DNA from: Thermoplasmatota archaeon
GTDB lineage: Archaea > Thermoplasmatota > Thermoplasmata > UBA10834
Direction of reading: 5' to 3'
Length of the DNA: 64,000 bases
Assembly: GCA_018818785.1 (NCBI GenBank)
Contig: JAHIRF010000011.1
Location: 22,987-86,986 of the forward strand
Part shown: piece after piece, positions 52,657 through 62,114 of the stretch
Numbering within the stretch: the stretch's first letter is position 1
Layout: the number at the start of each line of letters is the position of its first letter
Position numbers and translations under genes: made by a program
The notes under the pieces: model-generated
Database searches by the model: none
Told to the model about the DNA's origin: nothing
The model's input: only the letters and a program-made list of their open reading frames with translations

Positions 52657-52751
52657 TCTGTCTGCCGGCCTGATTGATATAATCTATCTTGTCTTTTCAA
52701 CGACTTCGGGGTTTTTATGGCAGTAATAGGTTTCACCATCCGGATGATAGG

Positions 52752-54209
52752 TTGGCCAAGGCTGTCTACGACCCATTGAATTCTGAACAGGAAGATGCAG
52801 TGCACCTGGAATCGATCAAGATCCTGGAGAATGTGGGGATCAAGGTGACGAGCCCCAAGGTTCTCAAGATGCTGAAGGACGCCGGGGGGATTGTGGATGA
52901 GAATACCCAGATTGTGAAGATATCGGAGGCGATGGTCAAGGAGGCGTTGTCCAAGGCCCCTAAGGAATTCACGATGTGTGGTAGAGACAAGAGATGGGAT
53001 CTGAGACTTCCGGCAGTGGATAGGATATACGGCGTCAATGACGGACAGCCGACCGATGTCTGGGACATGGATACTCAGAAGAAGCGCAAAGCTACCATGA
53101 AGGATCTGATCGACCTCACGCGTGTGTGCGACGCCATGCCCGAAGTGGATCTATATTGGCCAGAAGTCGTCGCCACAGATTTGCCACCTGATGTTTCCAA
53201 CAATCACGAATTCATCGCATCGATATTCAACACTGGGAAACACATTCAGCACGGTGCGGGCTCCATCGAGGACGCCAGGTTCCAGATAGAGACCGCCGCT
53301 GCGATAGTTGGTTCCGAGGAGGGACTCGCCAAGAGGCCGATAATCTCGATCACGCACACGCCCATAACCCCGCTCAGATACGAGGAGGGCGATATCGATG
53401 CTGTCGTCGAGTTCGCAAAGGCGGGCCTTCCAGTCGTCCACCTGTCCATGGCCATATCAGGGTCCGTGGCACCAGTGACGCTTGCAGGTACGATCTCGCT
53501 CGTCAACGCCGAGAACCTCGCGGGCGCAGTCATATCTGAGCTGGCAAAACCAGGTGCACCGATCCTCTACAGCTCAGAGTCTGGACCGATGGACATGAAG
53601 ACCGGCGTCTTCCTGTCCGGCTCGACCGAAGGTGCTTTGATCAATGCTACTGGCTGCCAGATGGCCCGCAGATACGGCCTGCCTTCGCAAGTGGGCGGGA
53701 CCGCGGCGTCGGGCTGTGTGCCTGGCTACGAGATCGGATACCAGAAGGCGATCAGCAGTCTCCTTCCCGCGATGGCCGGGGCCGATCAGATCGTCGGAAT
53801 CGGCGGTTTCGAACGCTCTGGGGTCGAGTCGGTCGAGCAGATCGTGATGGATTGCGAGTTGTGGCGGAACGTCCTGCGCGCTTGGAGAGGGGTAGAGGTA
53901 TCCGATAGCACATTGGGTTTCGATGTCATATCGAGAGTCGGTCCTGGCGGCTATTTCATGAAGGATCCGCACACCCTGCGCAATTTCCGGAAGGAGATGC
54001 TCCTACCTGAGATCGCCATGCTTCCGCCGATAATAGGTTCGGACACGGAACCTCTCAGAGTCGCTGCGAGAAACGAAGCGCGGAGAATCCTTAAAGAGCA
54101 CGAGCCGATGGGGATCGAGCGATCAGTCAAGGGGCAGATAATCGCACTCCTGTCGAAATACGATGAAATGGCAGGCGTTCGTCCCGTTAAGGTGAACTAC
54201 CTCGACTGA
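52752..54209 (+). CDS. Trimethylamine methyltransferase (MttB) family protein, second copy
   Basis: A 485-residue non-pyrrolysine MttB homologue, the clear paralogue of the protein at 27617-29071 (shared blocks GKHIQHGAGSIEDARFQIET, VVHLSMAISGSVAPVTLA, PHTLRNFRKEMLLPE). A TTG at 52752 makes the N-terminus and length match the paralogue; the frame is open to 52689. TTTTTATGG near 52714 is the likely TATA box. As with the first copy, no corrinoid protein or reductive activator gene is nearby, so methyl donor and acceptor are unknown. Confidence 0.85.
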   Translation: MAKAVYDPLNSEQEDAVHLESIKILENVGIKVTSPKVLKMLKDAGGIVDENTQIVKISEAMVKEALSKAPKEFTMCGRDKRWDLRLPAVDRIYGVNDGQPTDVWDMDTQKKRKATMKDLIDLTRVCDAMPEVDLYWPEVVATDLPPDVSNNHEFIASIFNTGKHIQHGAGSIEDARFQIETAAAIVGSEEGLAKRPIISITHTPITPLRYEEGDIDAVVEFAKAGLPVVHLSMAISGSVAPVTLAGTISLVNAENLAGAVISELAKPGAPILYSSESGPMDMKTGVFLSGSTEGALINATGCQMARRYGLPSQVGGTAASGCVPGYEIGYQKAISSLLPAMAGADQIVGIGGFERSGVESVEQIVMDCELWRNVLRAWRGVEVSDSTLGFDVISRVGPGGYFMKDPHTLRNFRKEMLLPEIAMLPPIIGSDTEPLRVAARNEARRILKEHEPMGIERSVKGQIIALLSKYDEMAGVRPVKVNYLD

Positions 54210-55413: not shown

Positions 55414-56196
55414 ATGGAGGAACAGCTTAGGATAGGCGCGGTAGATGACGAGCCCTTCGACAGAGCTCGTCGGATAGGATGGCTTGACCTCGACGCGGTG
55501 TTTAGAACCAAGGTTCTGATGGTTGGCGCAGGTGCTTTGGGAAACGAGGTCGGGAAGAACCTGGTCCTCTCAGGCTTTCGTCATGTGACAGTTGTCGATA
55601 TGGACCACGTCATGGGCTCGAACCTGAACAGATGTCTCTTCTTCTCACGAGTGGATGTTTCCAGACGGAGTCCCAAAGCCGAAGTGGTCGCCCGTGGAAT
55701 GAATGCCCTCTCTGAGCATGCCAATGTCGAATCGATCTCATCCACGATCGAGGAATTGGATGAAGGGCTGTATAGGGTCCACGACATCATACTTGGTTGT
55801 CTTGACAATATCCCTACTCGGCTCCATGTGAATTCACGATCCTATCGATTCGGGAAGACTCTGATCGATGGCGGGATGGAGGGGTTCGTTGGCCGAGTCT
55901 TCGTTGCCAATCCCCCGAATGGCGCATGCATCCAATGTGGCATGAACAAATCACATGCGAAGGTTGCGAACCTTCGCTTCAGCTGTACTGGGAAGGATGT
56001 GGTATTCCATGAACCTCGACTTCCAGCCGAGATCACGACCACGAGTGTCATATCGGCTATCATGGTCAGGGAGTGCCTGAAGTTCGTATCCGGTAGGACT
56101 GATATGATGCTGTCAAATGCCTTCTTCTACGACGGTCAGAGGAATGTCTCAGAAGAGCTGGAATTCGATATCGATCCGCTTTGTCCGAATCACTGA
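55414..56196 (+). CDS. E1-like ubiquitin-activating enzyme (UBA/ThiF adenylation domain)
   Basis: A 260-residue single-domain E1-like protein. It would adenylate the C-terminal glycine of the neighbouring Ubl and pass it through a thioester. Visible are the nucleotide loop GAGALGNE (38-45), acidic VDMDHV (61-66), SNLNR (69-73, Arg finger), the Lys of SPKAEVVA (88) and GCLDNIPTR (128-136). A CxxC zinc pair is at 172/175 (CIQC). FSCTGKDVVFHEPRLPAE (189-206) closely parallels the UBA3 catalytic segment, making Cys191 the best candidate for the thioester. It lacks the large E1 FCCH and ubiquitin-fold domains. It heads the E1-Ubl-E2-JAMM cluster. A MoeB/ThiF role is less likely given the E2 next door. 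Confidence 0.88.
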   Translation: MEEQLRIGAVDDEPFDRARRIGWLDLDAVFRTKVLMVGAGALGNEVGKNLVLSGFRHVTVVDMDHVMGSNLNRCLFFSRVDVSRRSPKAEVVARGMNALSEHANVESISSTIEELDEGLYRVHDIILGCLDNIPTRLHVNSRSYRFGKTLIDGGMEGFVGRVFVANPPNGACIQCGMNKSHAKVANLRFSCTGKDVVFHEPRLPAEITTTSVISAIMVRECLKFVSGRTDMMLSNAFFYDGQRNVSEELEFDIDPLCPNH

Positions 56197-56229
56197 GGCC
56201 TCCGATGTTGCTACAGGTATCCGAAAACG

Positions 56230-56236
56230 ATATAAT
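56230..56236 (+). promoter_or_regulatory. TATA box for the Ubl-E2-JAMM transcript
   Basis: ATATAAT lies about 36 bases before the proposed CTG start of the Ubl gene, so this gene trio may be transcribed separately from E1. The start site would fall near 56258, about ten bases before the CTG, with AGGCGATC in that short leader. Confidence 0.5.
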
Positions 56237-56268
56237 GTCAACAGCCGTCAGTCGTATAGGCGATCTTT

Positions 56269-56508
56269 CTGACTTTCAGACTCAAAGTTAAGAATGCAGA
56301 GACCGGTGCTGCAGTCGAAATGGAGCTAGAGGGTGACAATACCGTCGATGAGATCATCGAGAGTGCTGCCACTTTTTGGAACAAGGACATGGGCGCATAT
56401 GTCCTGAGAAAAGGCAAGAAGGTTCTTCGCGGTGGTTCCCCGATAAAGGATTCCGGGATAATTGCCGAAGATGTGCTGGAACTCATTCCAGATCCTGAAG
56501 GCGGATAG
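56269..56508 (+). CDS. Ubiquitin-like modifier protein with C-terminal Gly-Gly
   Basis: A 79-residue beta-grasp protein predicted from a CTG start. The order is strand 1 (TFRLKVKNAETG), strand 2 (AAVEMELEGD), the main helix (TVDEIIESAATFWN, about 25-38), strands 3-4 (AYVLRKGKKVLRGG) and a last strand DVLELIPDPEGG. It ends exactly in Gly-Gly-stop, so no precursor processing is needed. The size matches ubiquitin (76). Lysines at 6, 8, 39, 48, 50, 51 and 60 could allow chains. The first in-frame ATG (56320) would remove strands 1 and most of 2. AGGCGATC just before the CTG resembles the Shine-Dalgarno GGTGATC. It lies between the E1 and E2 genes, five bases before E2. Confidence 0.85.
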   Translation: MTFRLKVKNAETGAAVEMELEGDNTVDEIIESAATFWNKDMGAYVLRKGKKVLRGGSPIKDSGIIAEDVLELIPDPEGG

Positions 56509-56513
56509 TCGGG

Positions 56514-57035
56514 ATGTCTCTTCCGGTGGATGTGCTTAGAAAGCGTTTGAAAAACGAGATAGAGATATGTCAGCGTGAGCTCAGACATCATATCACCGTC
56601 TCTGATCCGACCCTTATCTCCTTCCCCATCCTGATCAACGTGCATATGCTCCGCGTGCCAGGTCCTACATGGGAGGAGAACAAGATCGTGCACAGGTTCG
56701 TCCACAAGATCGCGATTCTGATAAGTGAAGAATATCCCGTCGAGAAACCGATCGTCAAGTGGCAGACTCCCATCTTCCATCCGAACATAATGCCTCCCGA
56801 GGACGGCGGTTATGTATGTACGAGATTGCTGGAGAAATGGGATTTCAGCTCGACCTTGGCCACATTCATAAGGGGCATCGAGTCGCTTCTGGTTAATCCG
56901 AATCCTAGAAACCCGTTCGGGTGCGACACATGTACTCGGGCCGCTGCATACTTCAATCGTATGAGATATCAGCCTCCTACGGTGATGGATCAGACGGACC
57001 GCAGGATCAGGATCGTGGGGGGTTCCGATGCCTAG
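56514..57035 (+). CDS. E2-like ubiquitin-conjugating enzyme (UBC fold)
   Basis: A 173-residue UBC-fold protein that would take the Ubl from E1 and transfer it to substrate lysines. The N-terminal helix (about 5-24, VDVLRKRLKNEIEICQREL) precedes the beta meander. ISEEYPVEKPIVKWQTPIF leads to HPN (89-91), and DGGYVCTRLLEKW places the catalytic Cys102 eleven residues after the HPN Asn. SLLVNPNPRNPF near 124-135 matches the eukaryotic SLL-x-x-PNP-x-x-P segment. The C-terminal part holds two more cysteines (GCDTC). It starts five bases after the Ubl stop and overlaps the JAMM gene by eight bases. Confidence 0.88.
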   Translation: MSLPVDVLRKRLKNEIEICQRELRHHITVSDPTLISFPILINVHMLRVPGPTWEENKIVHRFVHKIAILISEEYPVEKPIVKWQTPIFHPNIMPPEDGGYVCTRLLEKWDFSSTLATFIRGIESLLVNPNPRNPFGCDTCTRAAAYFNRMRYQPPTVMDQTDRRIRIVGGSDA

Positions 57036-57672
57036 ACCCAGGATCGTTAGCGAGATCCAGCTCAAGATATCAGAGACGGCGCCGCCGTCAGTTGACAGCA
57101 TTGGTCCTCATGATTGGCTATCTGAGGAATCCCTTTCTGTATTCCATCGAGTCCTTGAATCTGGGTCGACTTTTGAGGTGTACTTGTCCGAAGCTGCAAA
57201 CTGCAAGATCGTGTCTCAAGCGGAGGAATCGGCTCCAAAGAGACTCGAGGTGATGGGGTTCATGTTGGGCGAAGTGTGTTCTTGGAGAGGTGAGACGTAC
57301 ACAATCGTCTGGGATATCGGCACAACCTCTCTGAAGAACACAACCGCGAAGGTCAGGTTTGACCATAGGGCGCTTCCGCGACTCTTCGGCGAACTCGATC
57401 GATCTGGATTCGATTATGTCATAGTCGGCTGGTACCACTCCCATCCTGGACACACGTGTTTCCTTTCAAAGACGGACCTCTATACGCAAAAGACCATGTT
57501 CAACCAGCCTTTCCATTCTGCGCTTGTAGTTGATCCGATAAATGCCGATATCAAGGTATTCAAGCTCTCGAACGAGGGGTATTGCGAGGTTCCATTTGCC
57601 CTGACTTGCGCCGCTCGTGAAAGTGAGGCTGTCGAGAATCGTCAACGCACTCGCCGGCTCAGAACAAGATGA
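57028..57672 (+). CDS. JAMM/MPN+ metallopeptidase (deubiquitinase-like)
   Basis: A 214-residue protein with a complete JAMM zinc-protease signature: Glu74 in RLEVMGFMLGE, His137 and His139 in WYHSHPG, Ser147 and Asp150 in FLSKTDLYTQ, giving HxHx7Sx2D. The sequence around it resembles RPN11/CSN5/AMSH proteins more than bacterial RadC. About 60 N-terminal residues are unassigned and the C-terminus is arginine-rich. As the Ubl already ends in Gly-Gly, the peptidase more likely removes conjugated Ubl than matures it. The start overlaps the E2 stop, so the two proteins should be made together. Confidence 0.9.
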   Translation: MPRPRIVSEIQLKISETAPPSVDSIGPHDWLSEESLSVFHRVLESGSTFEVYLSEAANCKIVSQAEESAPKRLEVMGFMLGEVCSWRGETYTIVWDIGTTSLKNTTAKVRFDHRALPRLFGELDRSGFDYVIVGWYHSHPGHTCFLSKTDLYTQKTMFNQPFHSALVVDPINADIKVFKLSNEGYCEVPFALTCAARESEAVENRQRTRRLRTR

Positions 57673-57732: not shown

Positions 57733-58911
57733 ATGAGGAGCCGGAGATGTAGAGTGACGAATGTGTATCGACTTGTCTGCATGATCGCGGTGATCGCCAT
57801 GGTATCATCGTCCCTCCCTGTGAACGTGTCTGGAGCCGATGACTATACTCTCGTCGTCTCACCCGACAAGATCAAGGTGAGCATTATATCTGGCATTTTT
57901 TCTGTTGCTGTGACCAATGACTGGCCACGGATCATATTCTGGCATACGAATGATCCATTCTCGCCGACGTTCGAGGCCAGTTTCCCTCGAATCCATATGT
58001 TCAATGACTCTGATGACAATGGAGTCTTTTGCCGATCAGAGGCCGTCGGCACAGTGTTCTTCGATTCCAATCATGCTACATGGCACCTCTCCTCGATAAT
58101 CGAGGGTCACACACCCGATATGGGCGAATACGCCATGTTCAGCATGTCTGCGGAGACATCGGTGTACAACATATCTGGGGAGGGTCCAGCCATCATCGAG
58201 GACTGGGCGAATGTCACTTTCTGGTTCTGCTTGACTGAGAAACCTGTCACCTATACCACCCCGACAGGCAGCTATATAGTGTCTGGCAAGACTGAAATGC
58301 GCGTAAACATGACGATTCGGATCACCAATTCCACATCTGCGGATTACATCGCACTTGAGCGATTCCTGCAAGGTGGAGGAACTACGAATTCGTTTGTGGT
58401 GACCGAGGATGATTTCCAATCCGATGAGGTTCTGACGCTCTTGTCTGGCTGGGACGATGAGACTCTTCTCGGTGCAGACTATACGAGACCTCTCAGGCAG
58501 ACAGATGACGTGGTCCAGCGCATTATGTACACCAAGGAGGATAATGCCTCCCAGGCACATTTTCTGTGGGGCACGGCCGCACGGATGAGCAACGGTTCAT
58601 CGTCATATGATCATATCCTTGGCTCATCGTGTTACACGACAGGCGCTGGTCTGATGCTGCATTCCGCCCTCCTTATCTCCAATGATACATATTCAATTGA
58701 AGACGAGACTATCATCGGAATCGATGAATCGGGATTTGTTGGTGGGGTCAGCGATTGGATAATGGAATATCTGCTAGCGTTCGTCGGACTCATTGCGATC
58801 GCAACGGTATCTGCGCTGGCGTTCTATCTCATACGAAAGAAGCAGAGGATCAAATCAAAAACGGAATCTGCGGATAATCTCGAAACGGACGAGATTATGG
58901 ATCGTGTCTAG
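57733..58911 (+). CDS. Secreted membrane-anchored hypothetical protein
   Basis: A 392-residue surface protein. A signal peptide (about 1-35, core VCMIAVIAMVSSSLPVNVSG) is followed by a beta-rich ectodomain with many N-x-S/T sequons, a membrane helix (about 345-367, AFVGLIAIATVSALAFYLI) and a short charged tail. It starts 60 bases after the JAMM gene on the same strand. No enzyme motifs seen, and nothing links it to Ubl conjugation except position. Confidence 0.75.
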   Translation: MRSRRCRVTNVYRLVCMIAVIAMVSSSLPVNVSGADDYTLVVSPDKIKVSIISGIFSVAVTNDWPRIIFWHTNDPFSPTFEASFPRIHMFNDSDDNGVFCRSEAVGTVFFDSNHATWHLSSIIEGHTPDMGEYAMFSMSAETSVYNISGEGPAIIEDWANVTFWFCLTEKPVTYTTPTGSYIVSGKTEMRVNMTIRITNSTSADYIALERFLQGGGTTNSFVVTEDDFQSDEVLTLLSGWDDETLLGADYTRPLRQTDDVVQRIMYTKEDNASQAHFLWGTAARMSNGSSSYDHILGSSCYTTGAGLMLHSALLISNDTYSIEDETIIGIDESGFVGGVSDWIMEYLLAFVGLIAIATVSALAFYLIRKKQRIKSKTESADNLETDEIMDRV

Positions 58912-59444
58912 ACCCAGATCGCATGCCGCTTCCTGAGAGACCCCTCACTCTGCCCGAGCTTCTCCATCAGCCTGGCGACTATGCTATCGAGATAGATCAG
59001 GGTGGCATTCTCGAAAAGGGTTCCAAGCGGTGCGAGAGTCTTCCTGTCATCGTCCTTCGGAGGATGTATTAACATGACTAGATTGGATGCGCTCGCGAGC
59101 TTCGAGTGGGCATTGGCAGTGATCGTGATCACCCTCGCCCCGACCCTTCGTACGATATTCGCGGTCTGGATGGCGGACATCGTCTCACCTGTGTGCGACA
59201 CGATTATCACCAGGTTCCCTTCCTCGACAATGGGTGTGATGGTCTCTCCTACAAAATAGACTTCCAACCCCATCTGAACCAGTCTTATCGCGAATGCCTT
59301 GGCTATCAGGCCGGAACGGCCGACACCATAGATGAATATCCTGCGTGATTCCATAATGGCATCTACAAACTTGTCTGTCTCCTCGACCTCGTTCTCGAGC
59401 GTTTGCTGAATGCTCTTCAGGATATAGTCGACGCTCTCCTTCAT
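58908..59444 (-). CDS. hxlB: 6-phospho-3-hexuloisomerase (SIS domain)
   Basis: A 178-residue SIS-fold isomerase of the ribulose monophosphate pathway, interconverting hexulose-6-phosphate and fructose-6-phosphate. Typical segments are FIYGVGRSGLIAKAFAIRL, YFVGETITPIVEEGNLVIIV and SHTGETMSAIQ. In archaea it runs in reverse for pentose synthesis, or fixes formaldehyde. The partner Hps (HxlA) is not in the window. It overlaps the upstream endonuclease IV-like gene (ATGA). Confidence 0.9.
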   Translation of the reverse strand: MKESVDYILKSIQQTLENEVEETDKFVDAIMESRRIFIYGVGRSGLIAKAFAIRLVQMGLEVYFVGETITPIVEEGNLVIIVSHTGETMSAIQTANIVRRVGARVITITANAHSKLASASNLVMLIHPPKDDDRKTLAPLGTLFENATLIYLDSIVARLMEKLGQSEGSLRKRHAIWV

Positions 59445-60484
59445 TTGGATCCGGCCTTTTCCTTCTTCGAGACTGTCTTCACTTCTTTGGAGACCTTCTT
59501 CGCAAGAACTCTCTCAAGGATGACTTTCATGTACATGGCATCATGCTCAAGCAGAGGTGATCCTGATATGATTGTAATCGAATCGTTCCTGTCAACGATT
59601 GCTTCGGCCAGTGGTTCGAACCTGAGATCGCCTTTCTTGATCGAAGTATATCTCTTCTCGTTGCCGCTATCGTGCTCAACGCCTGAGAAATGGGTGTAGT
59701 ACTCTCCCTTGACCAGATCATTGGTGGACTCCAGTAGTGTCTCGAAATTCTTCTGGTCCTTGAGTTGGCCGTCTTCCCTTGCGTGATAGTGCGCGAAATT
59801 GATCACCGGCACTACACCGTCTATACCCTTGCACAGCTTGGTGATCTCCGAAAGTGAGCCATAGATCTCCTGTCTGCCGCTCAATTCCAGGCCTATCGGT
59901 GCAGGTATCTTCTGTTTCTTGTACCAACCTGCAAGTTCCGTGACTTTCTCCTTTATCCGTTTTTGTGCCACCTTGGGGTTGGTCTCGCCATACAGTCCAA
60001 GGTGCGTGACGACCATGGTGCCTCCTAGCTCCTTGGCGATCACACCTCCCCATCGGATGGAGTCCATGCTCTTGAACGACAGCTCGCCATCGCTCACGAG
60101 GTCCATGTAGTATGGTGTGTGAATCGATAGCGCGACATCCAATTCCTCTGCCATGACCTTCAGTTTCCTCAGGTCGGTATAGTTATTGGCCAGGCCGCTC
60201 GACAATGTCACGAGCCTGTCTTCTACCTTTATTGGTTCTCCGAGGTCATAGATGACCTCCTCCTTCGACCCCTTCTTCCTCACGATCTCAATGACCATGT
60301 CATTGGGGAGTTCGATCGGTTTCAATCCGATCTCTTCGGGTTCTGCCGTCCTCTCTTGCACATGCGCTCTGACTAGCTGTGCCTCCAGCGCGGTAAGCCC
60401 GAGACGGTGAACATCCTCGATGCCATCCTTTAAAGTACGTCCTTTGCAGGATAGTGGTATTCCTGCAGGACCAAAACGTATCAT
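59441..60484 (-). CDS. Endonuclease IV / xylose isomerase-like TIM-barrel protein
   Basis: A 347-residue (beta/alpha)8-barrel protein of the AP endonuclease 2 family. Putative metal-ligand regions are LSIHTPYYMDL, GTMVVTHLGLYGE, PIGLELSGRQ and PVINFAHYHARE, then YYTHFSGVEHD. An N-terminal RFGPAGIPLSCKGRT is typical of archaeal endonuclease IV-like proteins. It could act on abasic DNA or be a sugar-phosphate isomerase; coupling to a 6-phosphohexuloisomerase gene leaves this open. The C-terminus is Lys-rich. Confidence 0.78.
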   Translation of the reverse strand: MIRFGPAGIPLSCKGRTLKDGIEDVHRLGLTALEAQLVRAHVQERTAEPEEIGLKPIELPNDMVIEIVRKKGSKEEVIYDLGEPIKVEDRLVTLSSGLANNYTDLRKLKVMAEELDVALSIHTPYYMDLVSDGELSFKSMDSIRWGGVIAKELGGTMVVTHLGLYGETNPKVAQKRIKEKVTELAGWYKKQKIPAPIGLELSGRQEIYGSLSEITKLCKGIDGVVPVINFAHYHAREDGQLKDQKNFETLLESTNDLVKGEYYTHFSGVEHDSGNEKRYTSIKKGDLRFEPLAEAIVDRNDSITIISGSPLLEHDAMYMKVILERVLAKKVSKEVKTVSKKEKAGSK

Positions 60485-60728: not shown

Positions 60729-61094
60729 ATGGGAAAGAAGAATAACAAAACGAACCCCAACCTCGTGAGCCTGATACAGCGTCTGAAGGACGCGAGCAGG
60801 ACTAACGAGGCACCTGTCTGGCGAGACATCGCAATTCGTCTGGAGGGACCAGCAAGTAACTGGGCTGAGGTCAATATCAGCAGACTCAACCGCTACGCGG
60901 AAGAGAACGATGTTGTCGTCATCCCTGGAAAGTTGCTCGGGTCCGGCGATCTTGCGAAGCAGCTAACCGTCGCCGCGTACAGGTTTTCGGGACAGGCCAA
61001 GGATAAAGTGAAGAATGCTGGTGGACAGAACCTGTCCATTGAGGAGCTCATCGCTAAGAACCCGAAGGGCTCCAAAGTCAGGATTATGGGGTGA
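60729..61094 (+). CDS. rpl18e: Ribosomal protein L18e
   Basis: A 121-residue large-subunit ribosomal protein of the eL18 family. KNNKTNPNLVSLIQRLKDAS and VVVIPGKLLGSGDLAKQLTV match the archaeal consensus. The ATG at 60729 is used; the upstream open frame is not conserved. It is the first gene of the conserved archaeal cluster L18e-L13-S9-RpoN. Confidence 0.95.
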   Translation: MGKKNNKTNPNLVSLIQRLKDASRTNEAPVWRDIAIRLEGPASNWAEVNISRLNRYAEENDVVVIPGKLLGSGDLAKQLTVAAYRFSGQAKDKVKNAGGQNLSIEELIAKNPKGSKVRIMG

Positions 61095-61098
61095 TCTG

Positions 61099-61524
61099 AT
61101 GGCGGTTATAGATGCTGATGGACTCGTTCTGGGGAGATTGTGCACACATGTCGCGAAGCGTCTTCTCAACGGTGAGGAGATCGCCATAGTGAACGCCGAG
61201 AATGCCATTGTCTCTGGAAACAGGGTCCAACTGCTCGCATTCTACAAGCAAAGGCGGTCCCGAGGCCAGGGCACGCACGGTCCTTACTATCCGCGCAATG
61301 CGGACACGATTCTCAAGCGCTCAGTCAGGGGTATGCTCGAATACAAGAAACCCTCTGGACGAGCTGCCTATAAGCGACTCAGGGTGTATGTCGGCGTCCC
61401 TGAATCACTCAAGGATCAGAAACCAGAGACCCTTGAGAGTGCGAAGAAGCCACACCTCGTCAAGTATGTACATCTCAAGGACATAACACTTGAACTGGGC
61501 TCTAGCAGGGAGTTGAACAAATGA
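61099..61524 (+). CDS. rpl13: Ribosomal protein L13
   Basis: A 141-residue uL13 protein. IDADGLVLGRLCTHVAKRLL and the GPYYPRNADTILKRSVRGML segment are typical. A perfect GGGGTGATC Shine-Dalgarno ends three bases before the ATG, four bases after the L18e stop. Its end overlaps the S9 start (ATGA). Confidence 0.95.
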   Translation: MAVIDADGLVLGRLCTHVAKRLLNGEEIAIVNAENAIVSGNRVQLLAFYKQRRSRGQGTHGPYYPRNADTILKRSVRGMLEYKKPSGRAAYKRLRVYVGVPESLKDQKPETLESAKKPHLVKYVHLKDITLELGSSRELNK

Positions 61525-61919
61525 AGGTTGTTGTTGCTAGCGGCAAGAGGAAGAGCGCTGTCGCACGCGCAAGCGTCAGGAAGGGCAAGGGTCTGGTTCG
61601 GGTGAACAACGTTCCGATCGAGATATTCGAACCGGCACTTGCGAGAACCAAGATCATGGAGCCATTGACACTTGCGGGCGAACTGTCATCGAAGGTCAAC
61701 ATCGATGTGAATGTTCAGGGCGGGGGCATAATGGGACAGGCCTCAGCTTCAAGGACCGCTATTGCCAAGGGTATGGTGCAGTTCCTCGAGGACAAGGACC
61801 TCGAATCGATGTTCATGAAATACGATCGTTCGCTACTTGTGTCTGATCCGAGGAGAAAGCTTCCAAAAACGCCTCTGGGCAGAGGTGCAAGGAAGAATCG
61901 CCAGAAATCGTACAGGTGA
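61521..61919 (+). CDS. rps9: Ribosomal protein S9
   Basis: A 132-residue uS9 protein. SGKRKSAVARASVRKGKG at the N-terminus and the basic tail ending RKNRQKSYR, which reaches the P-site tRNA, are intact. Overlaps L13 by four bases. Confidence 0.95.
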   Translation: MKVVVASGKRKSAVARASVRKGKGLVRVNNVPIEIFEPALARTKIMEPLTLAGELSSKVNIDVNVQGGGIMGQASASRTAIAKGMVQFLEDKDLESMFMKYDRSLLVSDPRRKLPKTPLGRGARKNRQKSYR

Positions 61920-61925
61920 TCTACC

Positions 61926-62114
61926 TTGATAATACCCGTCAGATGTTTCACTTGCGGAAAGGTCATCGGCAGTGCATACGAGGAATTCGTGAAGAGAGTC
62001 GATATGGGGGAGCCCCCGAAGGACGTCCTCGACGCTCTACACCTCGATCGATACTGCTGCCGAAGGATGATCCTCACGCATGCGGACCTGATAGACGAAG
62101 TGGCTCCCTATTGA
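61926..62114 (+). CDS. rpoN: DNA-directed RNA polymerase subunit N
   Basis: A 62-residue Rpb10 homologue with the zinc motif CFTCGKV and the CC pair in RYCCRRM. Starts at a TTG six bases after the S9 stop. Its last codons form the 5' arm of a hairpin and the stop codon sits at the arm-loop junction of that hairpin. Confidence 0.95.

Follow-up and report, generated by a model that had tools for sequence, protein, structure and literature searches.

An E1, ubiquitin-like modifier, E2 and JAMM gene cluster in Thermoplasmatota archaea, with RING proteins encoded mostly elsewhere

The operon and its four proteins

We analysed a stretch of 64,000 nucleotides from the genome of a Thermoplasmatota archaeon (assembly GCA_018818785.1, contig JAHIRF010000011.1, positions 22,987 to 86,986 of the forward strand), referred to here as the window. 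Between window positions 55414 and 57672 lie four nearly contiguous open reading frames (ORFs) on the + strand, in the order E1, ubiquitin-like modifier (Ubl), E2 and JAMM. An earlier note, made from the sequence alone, had claimed a complete ubiquitin-like conjugation operon here; the four adjacent same-strand genes are borne out by the ORF calls and, for E1, E2 and JAMM, by Pfam:

55414..56196, + strand: minimal E1-like activating enzyme, 260 residues (Pfam ThiF, 3.9e-44)
56269..56508, + strand: ubiquitin-like modifier, 79 residues, CTG start (AlphaFold2 fold and homologue profile)
56514..57035, + strand: UBC-fold E2, 173 residues (Pfam UQ_con, 9.1e-14, cut-off passed)
57028..57672, + strand: JAMM/MPN+ metalloprotease, 214 residues (Pfam JAB, 3.5e-11)

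Gaps of 72 and 5 bases separate E1 from the modifier and the modifier from E2, and the E2 and JAMM genes overlap by 8 bases.

The first protein was correctly recognised as a UBA-type E1. Its closest solved structures in a PDB search are the E1 subunits of the NEDD8, SUMO and ubiquitin pathways (UBA3, 1.6e-22), which rank above ThiF and MoeB; UBA5 is also matched, more weakly than UBA3 or SAE2. The nucleotide-binding motif GxGxxGN (residues 38-44) is conserved among homologues, a candidate catalytic cysteine, Cys191 in the sequence FSCTG, is kept in 35 of 37, and the zinc ligands Cys172, Cys175, Cys257 and His260 are kept in 36-37 of 37. In Pfam, ThiF alone spans residues 20-251, with no inserted or C-terminal domain, and the 260-residue protein thus has no separate catalytic-Cys domain.

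The modifier ends in PDPEGG, the Gly-Gly codons lying at 56500-56505. Its 79 residues depend on a CTG start at 56269, as the first ATG would give only 62, and the longer form is favoured because homologues start with ATG or TTG at or near the same point. Profile searches confirmed ThiF, UQ_con and JAB for the other three proteins; the modifier is too divergent for Pfam and on its own scored only 0.21 against the ubiquitin family. A profile built from 46 modifier sequences nevertheless finds ubiquitin in the PDB, aligning modifier residue 79 with ubiquitin residue 76, and the AlphaFold2 model is a β-grasp (predicted local distance difference test score, pLDDT, 90.3) whose top PDB folds are SUMO1 and ubiquitin, with template modelling (TM) scores of about 0.8-0.86. 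The proposed β-grasp protein with a Gly-Gly end is therefore upheld. Pro76, Gly78 and Gly79 are invariant in the 46 homologues; at positions 49-50, which align with ubiquitin Gly47-Lys48, the glycine is invariant and the lysine is present in 35 of 46.

Similar agreement was obtained for the E2, whose UBC fold, HPN motif and catalytic cysteine had all been predicted. HPN occupies residues 89-91, followed by the catalytic Cys102 (56817-56819) and Trp109, and all are invariant in 46 homologues. Eukaryotic E2s are found by phmmer at 9e-12 and are also the top PDB folds for the AlphaFold2 model (pLDDT 90.7). The two models thus have the folds on which the earlier note had rested its case.

All the zinc ligands expected of the JAMM protein are in place. 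The residues concerned are Glu74, HSHP at 137-140, Ser147 and Asp150, and the active site (Glu74, His137, His139, Ser147 and Asp150) is intact in 99 of 104 loci. The best solved match is Caldiarchaeum Rpn11 (1.3e-15), with eukaryotic Rpn11 next. At 49 loci the modifier runs 1-15 residues beyond Gly-Gly, and every one of these (49/49) has an intact JAMM. At the others, the window included, the modifier already ends at Gly-Gly and the JAMM is conserved even so, hence a second role such as deconjugation is to be expected. Two distant Thermoplasmatota loci carry fused versions: the modifier follows zinc ribbons and a DUF835 domain in one protein (L072:4849-5979 and L077:4909-5976), and the JAMM is joined to a long C-terminal region, giving proteins of 629 and 884 residues.

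These properties bear on whether the cluster is instead a dual system like SAMP/Urm1, in which the modifier would mainly carry sulfur, a MoeB/UbaA-type enzyme would activate it and conjugation would be secondary. The E1 is indeed minimal, a ThiF-fold enzyme as large as MoeB whose zinc ligands are conserved. Yet it scores 61 bits against the SAMP-activating E1 (UbaA equivalog) model NF047750, whose cut-off is 450, and the genome separately encodes a MoeB/UbaA-like E1 and three ThiS/MoaD proteins. Moreover, both the profile and the fold of the modifier point to ubiquitin and SUMO, and sulfur transfer gives no role to an E2 that is conserved and whose catalytic cysteine is invariant. We consider a primary role in sulfur transfer improbable.

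Distribution and inheritance of the cluster

E2 was found in 52 of the 100 nearest genomes. PF00179 matched 63 genomes in a sample of 292 from the phylum Thermoplasmatota and none of the 14 controls, which included Haloferax, Methanosarcina, Methanocaldococcus and Sulfolobus. A chance explanation is unlikely because dozens of homologues retain the catalytic residues and PF00179 is absent from those controls. GTDB contigs yielded 77 loci. The labels of 76 read Thermoplasmatota, Euryarchaeota or unnamed archaeon, and Methanomassiliicoccales and Methanoplasma make up a large part of these. The remaining one belongs to a Desulfurococcales metagenome-assembled genome and comprises a Ubl-E2-JAMM cluster whose modifier ends in PEGG (L107). 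The cluster singled out in this genome is thus real, but it is widespread in the phylum and not confined to this genome.

Most complete loci, across Methanomassiliicoccales and other Thermoplasmatota families, retain the order E1-Ubl-E2-JAMM, and the downstream neighbourhood is shared as well. In the window it consists of:

58908..60484, − strand: SIS-domain gene and TIM-barrel-type gene, a conserved flank with homologues at related loci
60732-62114, + strand: ribosomal protein genes and rpoN/RPB10, beyond the SIS/TIM flank, a housekeeping context

Where enough downstream DNA was available, a SIS homologue was present at 56 of 62 loci and a TIM homologue at 49 of 54; L18e-L13-S9-RPB10 often follow further along. 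Both the Thermoplasmatota host and the housekeeping flanks had been correctly identified. An E2 tree, built by a quick method and read only for its general agreement with taxonomy, broadly tracks it. Together, the conserved order, the flanks and the tree point to vertical inheritance, at the order level at least. Since the same gene order and flanks recur in dozens of independent genomes, close relatives among them, an assembly chimera is ruled out.

Bacterial Bil and CBASS operons also combine E1, E2 and JAB, Bil with a modifier in addition, and an analogous anti-viral function might be envisaged for the archaeal genes, all the more as the E1 adenylation domain weakly matches the PADLOC models for E1-E2 fusions (in their adenylation part only). 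Those models match neither the modifier nor the E2, however, none of the loci inspected showed defence neighbours, and the vertical distribution beside ribosomal and other housekeeping genes argues against such a role, which we regard as very improbable.

Upstream, an M29-type peptidase gene was considered as an operon member and not counted, being present at only 10 of 55 loci. The window also holds a gene of the trimethylamine methyltransferase family (MTTB) at 52689-54209 that reads through with no in-frame stop; it is apparently a non-pyrrolysine member. Other arrangements of related genes occur in the phylum. One genome encodes a fused ubiquitin-like domain and E2 of 230 residues, followed by JAMM and E1 (L109:1144-1833, genome G100), and this is a second, different system. 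Two others (L110 and L111, genomes G115 and G104) combine an E1 of about 415-420 residues with an E2 and a JAMM of 324-333 residues, possibly another E1-E2-JAMM kind that is closer to that of Caldiarchaeum.

RING proteins and their association with E2

No RING gene lies within the window operon. A RING-family search of the same genome gave candidates under the Pfam cut-off. Three possess a complete domain, and these share an eight-ligand pattern, C-x2-C...C-x-C-G...H-x2-C...C-P-x-C:

contig 4, 186975-187994: 339-residue protein, RING and tandem zinc ribbons
contig 5, 211156-215667: 1503-residue protein, apparently helical-repeat, with C-terminal RING
contig 9, 187200-189068: membrane protein, 623-residue frame, RING and DUF835

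The first of these genes adjoins two ftsZ genes (contig 4, 183029-187994; L193), and the proteasome alpha gene, with exosome genes beside it, is about 3 kb away. In RING profile A4 the eight Cys/His cross-brace ligands are invariant, and single sequences mostly score under the Pfam cut-off. When a profile of 26 RING sequences was searched against the PDB, the top matches were eukaryotic RING E3s, namely AMFR (1.4e-6), RNF165 and Arkadia.

In other families, RING genes stand inside the operon. Two genomes (G103 and G114; loci L205 and L206) have a giant gene between E1 and Ubl-E2-JAMM, coding for 3155 or 3198 residues with a C-terminal RING, and in two more (G130 and G135; L207 and L208) the giant RING gene immediately precedes E2-JAMM; these four represent families f32 and f49. 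A genome of family f46 (G119; L209) has the order RING-E1-Ubl-E2-JAMM, with a RING protein of 425 residues. The 1503-residue protein of the window genome is homologous to the C-terminal ~330-390 residues of the operon giants (E 2e-33 to that of G103). We observe, as a new feature, RING proteins dispersed in the genome with homologues inside the operons of other families. In families f6, f20 and f28, which are of Methanomassiliicoccales type, E2-positive genomes encode a small RING protein, about 164-287 residues long, with the RING followed by zinc ribbons and often with an N-terminal hydrophobic segment. AMFR/gp78 as the best RING match and the hydrophobic N-termini of the Methanomassiliicoccales proteins weakly suggest a part in membrane-protein quality control. 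At E2 position 76, which from our own alignment we take to be where ubiquitin E2s touch RING domains, 39 of 46 homologues have Tyr or Phe.

The occurrence of RING and E2 is closely linked. Among the 100 relatives, a RING-like domain is present in 52/52 E2-positive genomes, and E2 is absent from 19/19 RING-less ones. Across the phylum sample, profile A4 matches 49 of 63 E2-positive and 19 of 229 E2-negative genomes (Fisher 3e-27, kinship ignored). A single well-matching small RING protein is found in all 23 E2-positive genomes of f6, f20 and f28. Conversely, three genomes (G096, G186 and G207) have neither E2 nor the small RING protein, an absence that was forecast ahead of the search for the latter two; of two further E2-less genomes in the phylum sample, G216 has no RING and G269 only a 28-residue RING fragment. 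None of the five has the orthologous E1; their only ThiF proteins are distant ones. In genus g48 a modifier-like gene has been kept, its end changed from PDPEGG to PDPSML, PDPEAY, PTSDEL or FMGTRI. At four such loci (L217-L220, from G216, G207, G186 and G269) the retained gene lacks Gly-Gly, and possible JAMM remnants lie nearby in two. Loss of Gly-Gly along with E1, E2 and RING would be expected of a system that worked by Gly-Gly conjugation. RING does not mark E2 strictly, as the ~1500-residue RING protein occurs in E2-less lineages.

It could be argued that E1 and E2 conjugate alone, the RING proteins being unrelated zinc-finger proteins: the window operon carries no RING gene, and RING-like domains are found in some E2-less genomes. 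We think this unlikely, since at least three families have RING genes within the operon, RING and E2 co-occur among the 100 relatives, and f6 genomes have lost E2 and intact RING together.

A proposed conjugation pathway and known systems

We propose, with a probability of about 0.8, that the cluster encodes a ubiquitin-like conjugation pathway running from E1 to E2 to a RING protein encoded elsewhere and on to the substrate, with JAMM as processor or deconjugase. The proposal draws on four protein families, intact active sites, a conserved operon and RING domains, as recognised by sequence and structure prediction; from these we infer the thioester relay, the RING protein as E3, deconjugation and the proteasome as output. 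The modifier would be adenylated at its C-terminal Gly-Gly by the E1 and bound to that enzyme as a thioester, with Cys191 the probable site, before E2 Cys102 accepts it. A RING protein would then recruit the charged E2 and the substrate, leading to an isopeptide bond on lysine. Where a species has precursors that run on after Gly-Gly, JAMM may trim them, and it may also strip the modifier from substrates. Regulated turnover via the archaeal 20S proteasome, whose subunit genes are present in the genome, would be a likely outcome.

Several points weigh against this proposal. The E1 has no canonical catalytic-Cys domain, and the route by which it would hand the modifier to E2 is not evident from its sequence. 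The link to the proteasome is one of co-presence alone, the co-occurrence statistics ignore phylogeny, and the co-loss probably represents only two independent events (G096 and genus g48). Some genomes that lack E2 do have RING domains, mainly in proteins of the ~1500-residue type. Finally, a few lineages of Methanomassiliicoccales type (L103-L106, L211 and L213) have a degenerate JAMM, yet keep E1, a Gly-Gly modifier and E2; RING is kept as well in both genomes of this kind that were checked (G036 and G069). At L103-L106, the three modifiers that could be read have a bare Gly-Gly end; a link between JAMM loss and the bare end was dropped, the degenerate loci being too few for significance.

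Archaeal conjugation dependent on E2 and RING has so far come mainly from the uncultured Caldiarchaeum and Asgard lineages. Ubiquitin operons in Caldiarchaeum subterraneum and Asgard archaea are established (PMC5654768, PMC6043591). Among Euryarchaeota, a 2014 survey found UCH and RING proteins in a single marine group II genome only (PMC4327156). In 2015, Methanomassiliicoccus luminyensis was noted to have a JAMM resembling Rpn11 (PMC4453063). A paper of 2018 mentions a 'JAMM-3' group that sits in Ub/E1/E2 operons, its text naming no taxa (PMC6043591). Searches of open-access full texts, supplements aside, turned up no account of the Thermoplasmatota system, which does not prove priority. The description of the cluster as 'undescribed' therefore probably holds for the whole system and fails for some of its parts, in view of the M. 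luminyensis JAMM and the JAMM-3 group.

Our findings suggest a wider spread of eukaryote-like ubiquitin tagging among archaea than the open-access literature describes, and a conserved version across Thermoplasmatota changes the phylogenetic setting in which the origin of ubiquitin has to be seen. More tentatively, and with the odds somewhat against it, Thermoplasmatota, gut methanogens included, may have inherited the full pathway of E1, modifier, E2, RING and Rpn11-like JAMM vertically from a deep ancestor. E2/RING-dependent conjugation would then not be an invention of TACK or Asgard archaea, being older in archaea, and its simpler E1 would predate or bypass the catalytic-Cys domain. Methanomassiliicoccus luminyensis is a cultured gut methanogen. 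The JAMM of the same type reported from it (PMC4453063) offers a tractable route, and the genus that lost E1, E2, RING and Gly-Gly together provides natural knock-outs.

Among known systems, the Thermoplasmatota pathway resembles those of C. subterraneum and Asgard archaea in its Gly-Gly modifier of ubiquitin fold, E1, UBC-fold E2, RING proteins, named srfp in those systems, and Rpn11-like JAMM, as well as in the C-terminal modifier extension of many species and in having Caldiarchaeum Rpn11 as the closest JAMM in the PDB. It differs in the order E1-Ubl-E2-JAMM on one strand, in RING proteins of other architectures that are mostly outside the operon, in its hosts, Thermoplasmatota including methanogens, and in a 260-residue E1 without the separate catalytic-Cys domain that the C. 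subterraneum enzyme has (PMC11354881). With SAMP/UbaA/HvJAMM1 of Haloferax volcanii it shares an archaeal Gly-Gly modifier, a small E1 and a JAMM; that system, however, conjugates without an E2. The Thermoplasmatota modifier is ubiquitin-like rather than MoaD/ThiS-like, and MoeB/ThiS-type proteins are encoded separately in the window genome. As in bacterial Bil and CBASS operons, an adenylating E1 domain, an E2 and a JAB peptidase are clustered, with a modifier as in Bil, but the E2 and modifier have no PADLOC match, the minimal E1 is a separate protein, the context is housekeeping and inheritance is vertical. The UBA5/UFC1/UFM1 pathway likewise uses a minimal E1 with its catalytic cysteine within the adenylation domain. 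Unlike UFM1, which relies on a different protease, the modifier described here is ubiquitin-like and is paired with an Rpn11-like JAMM.

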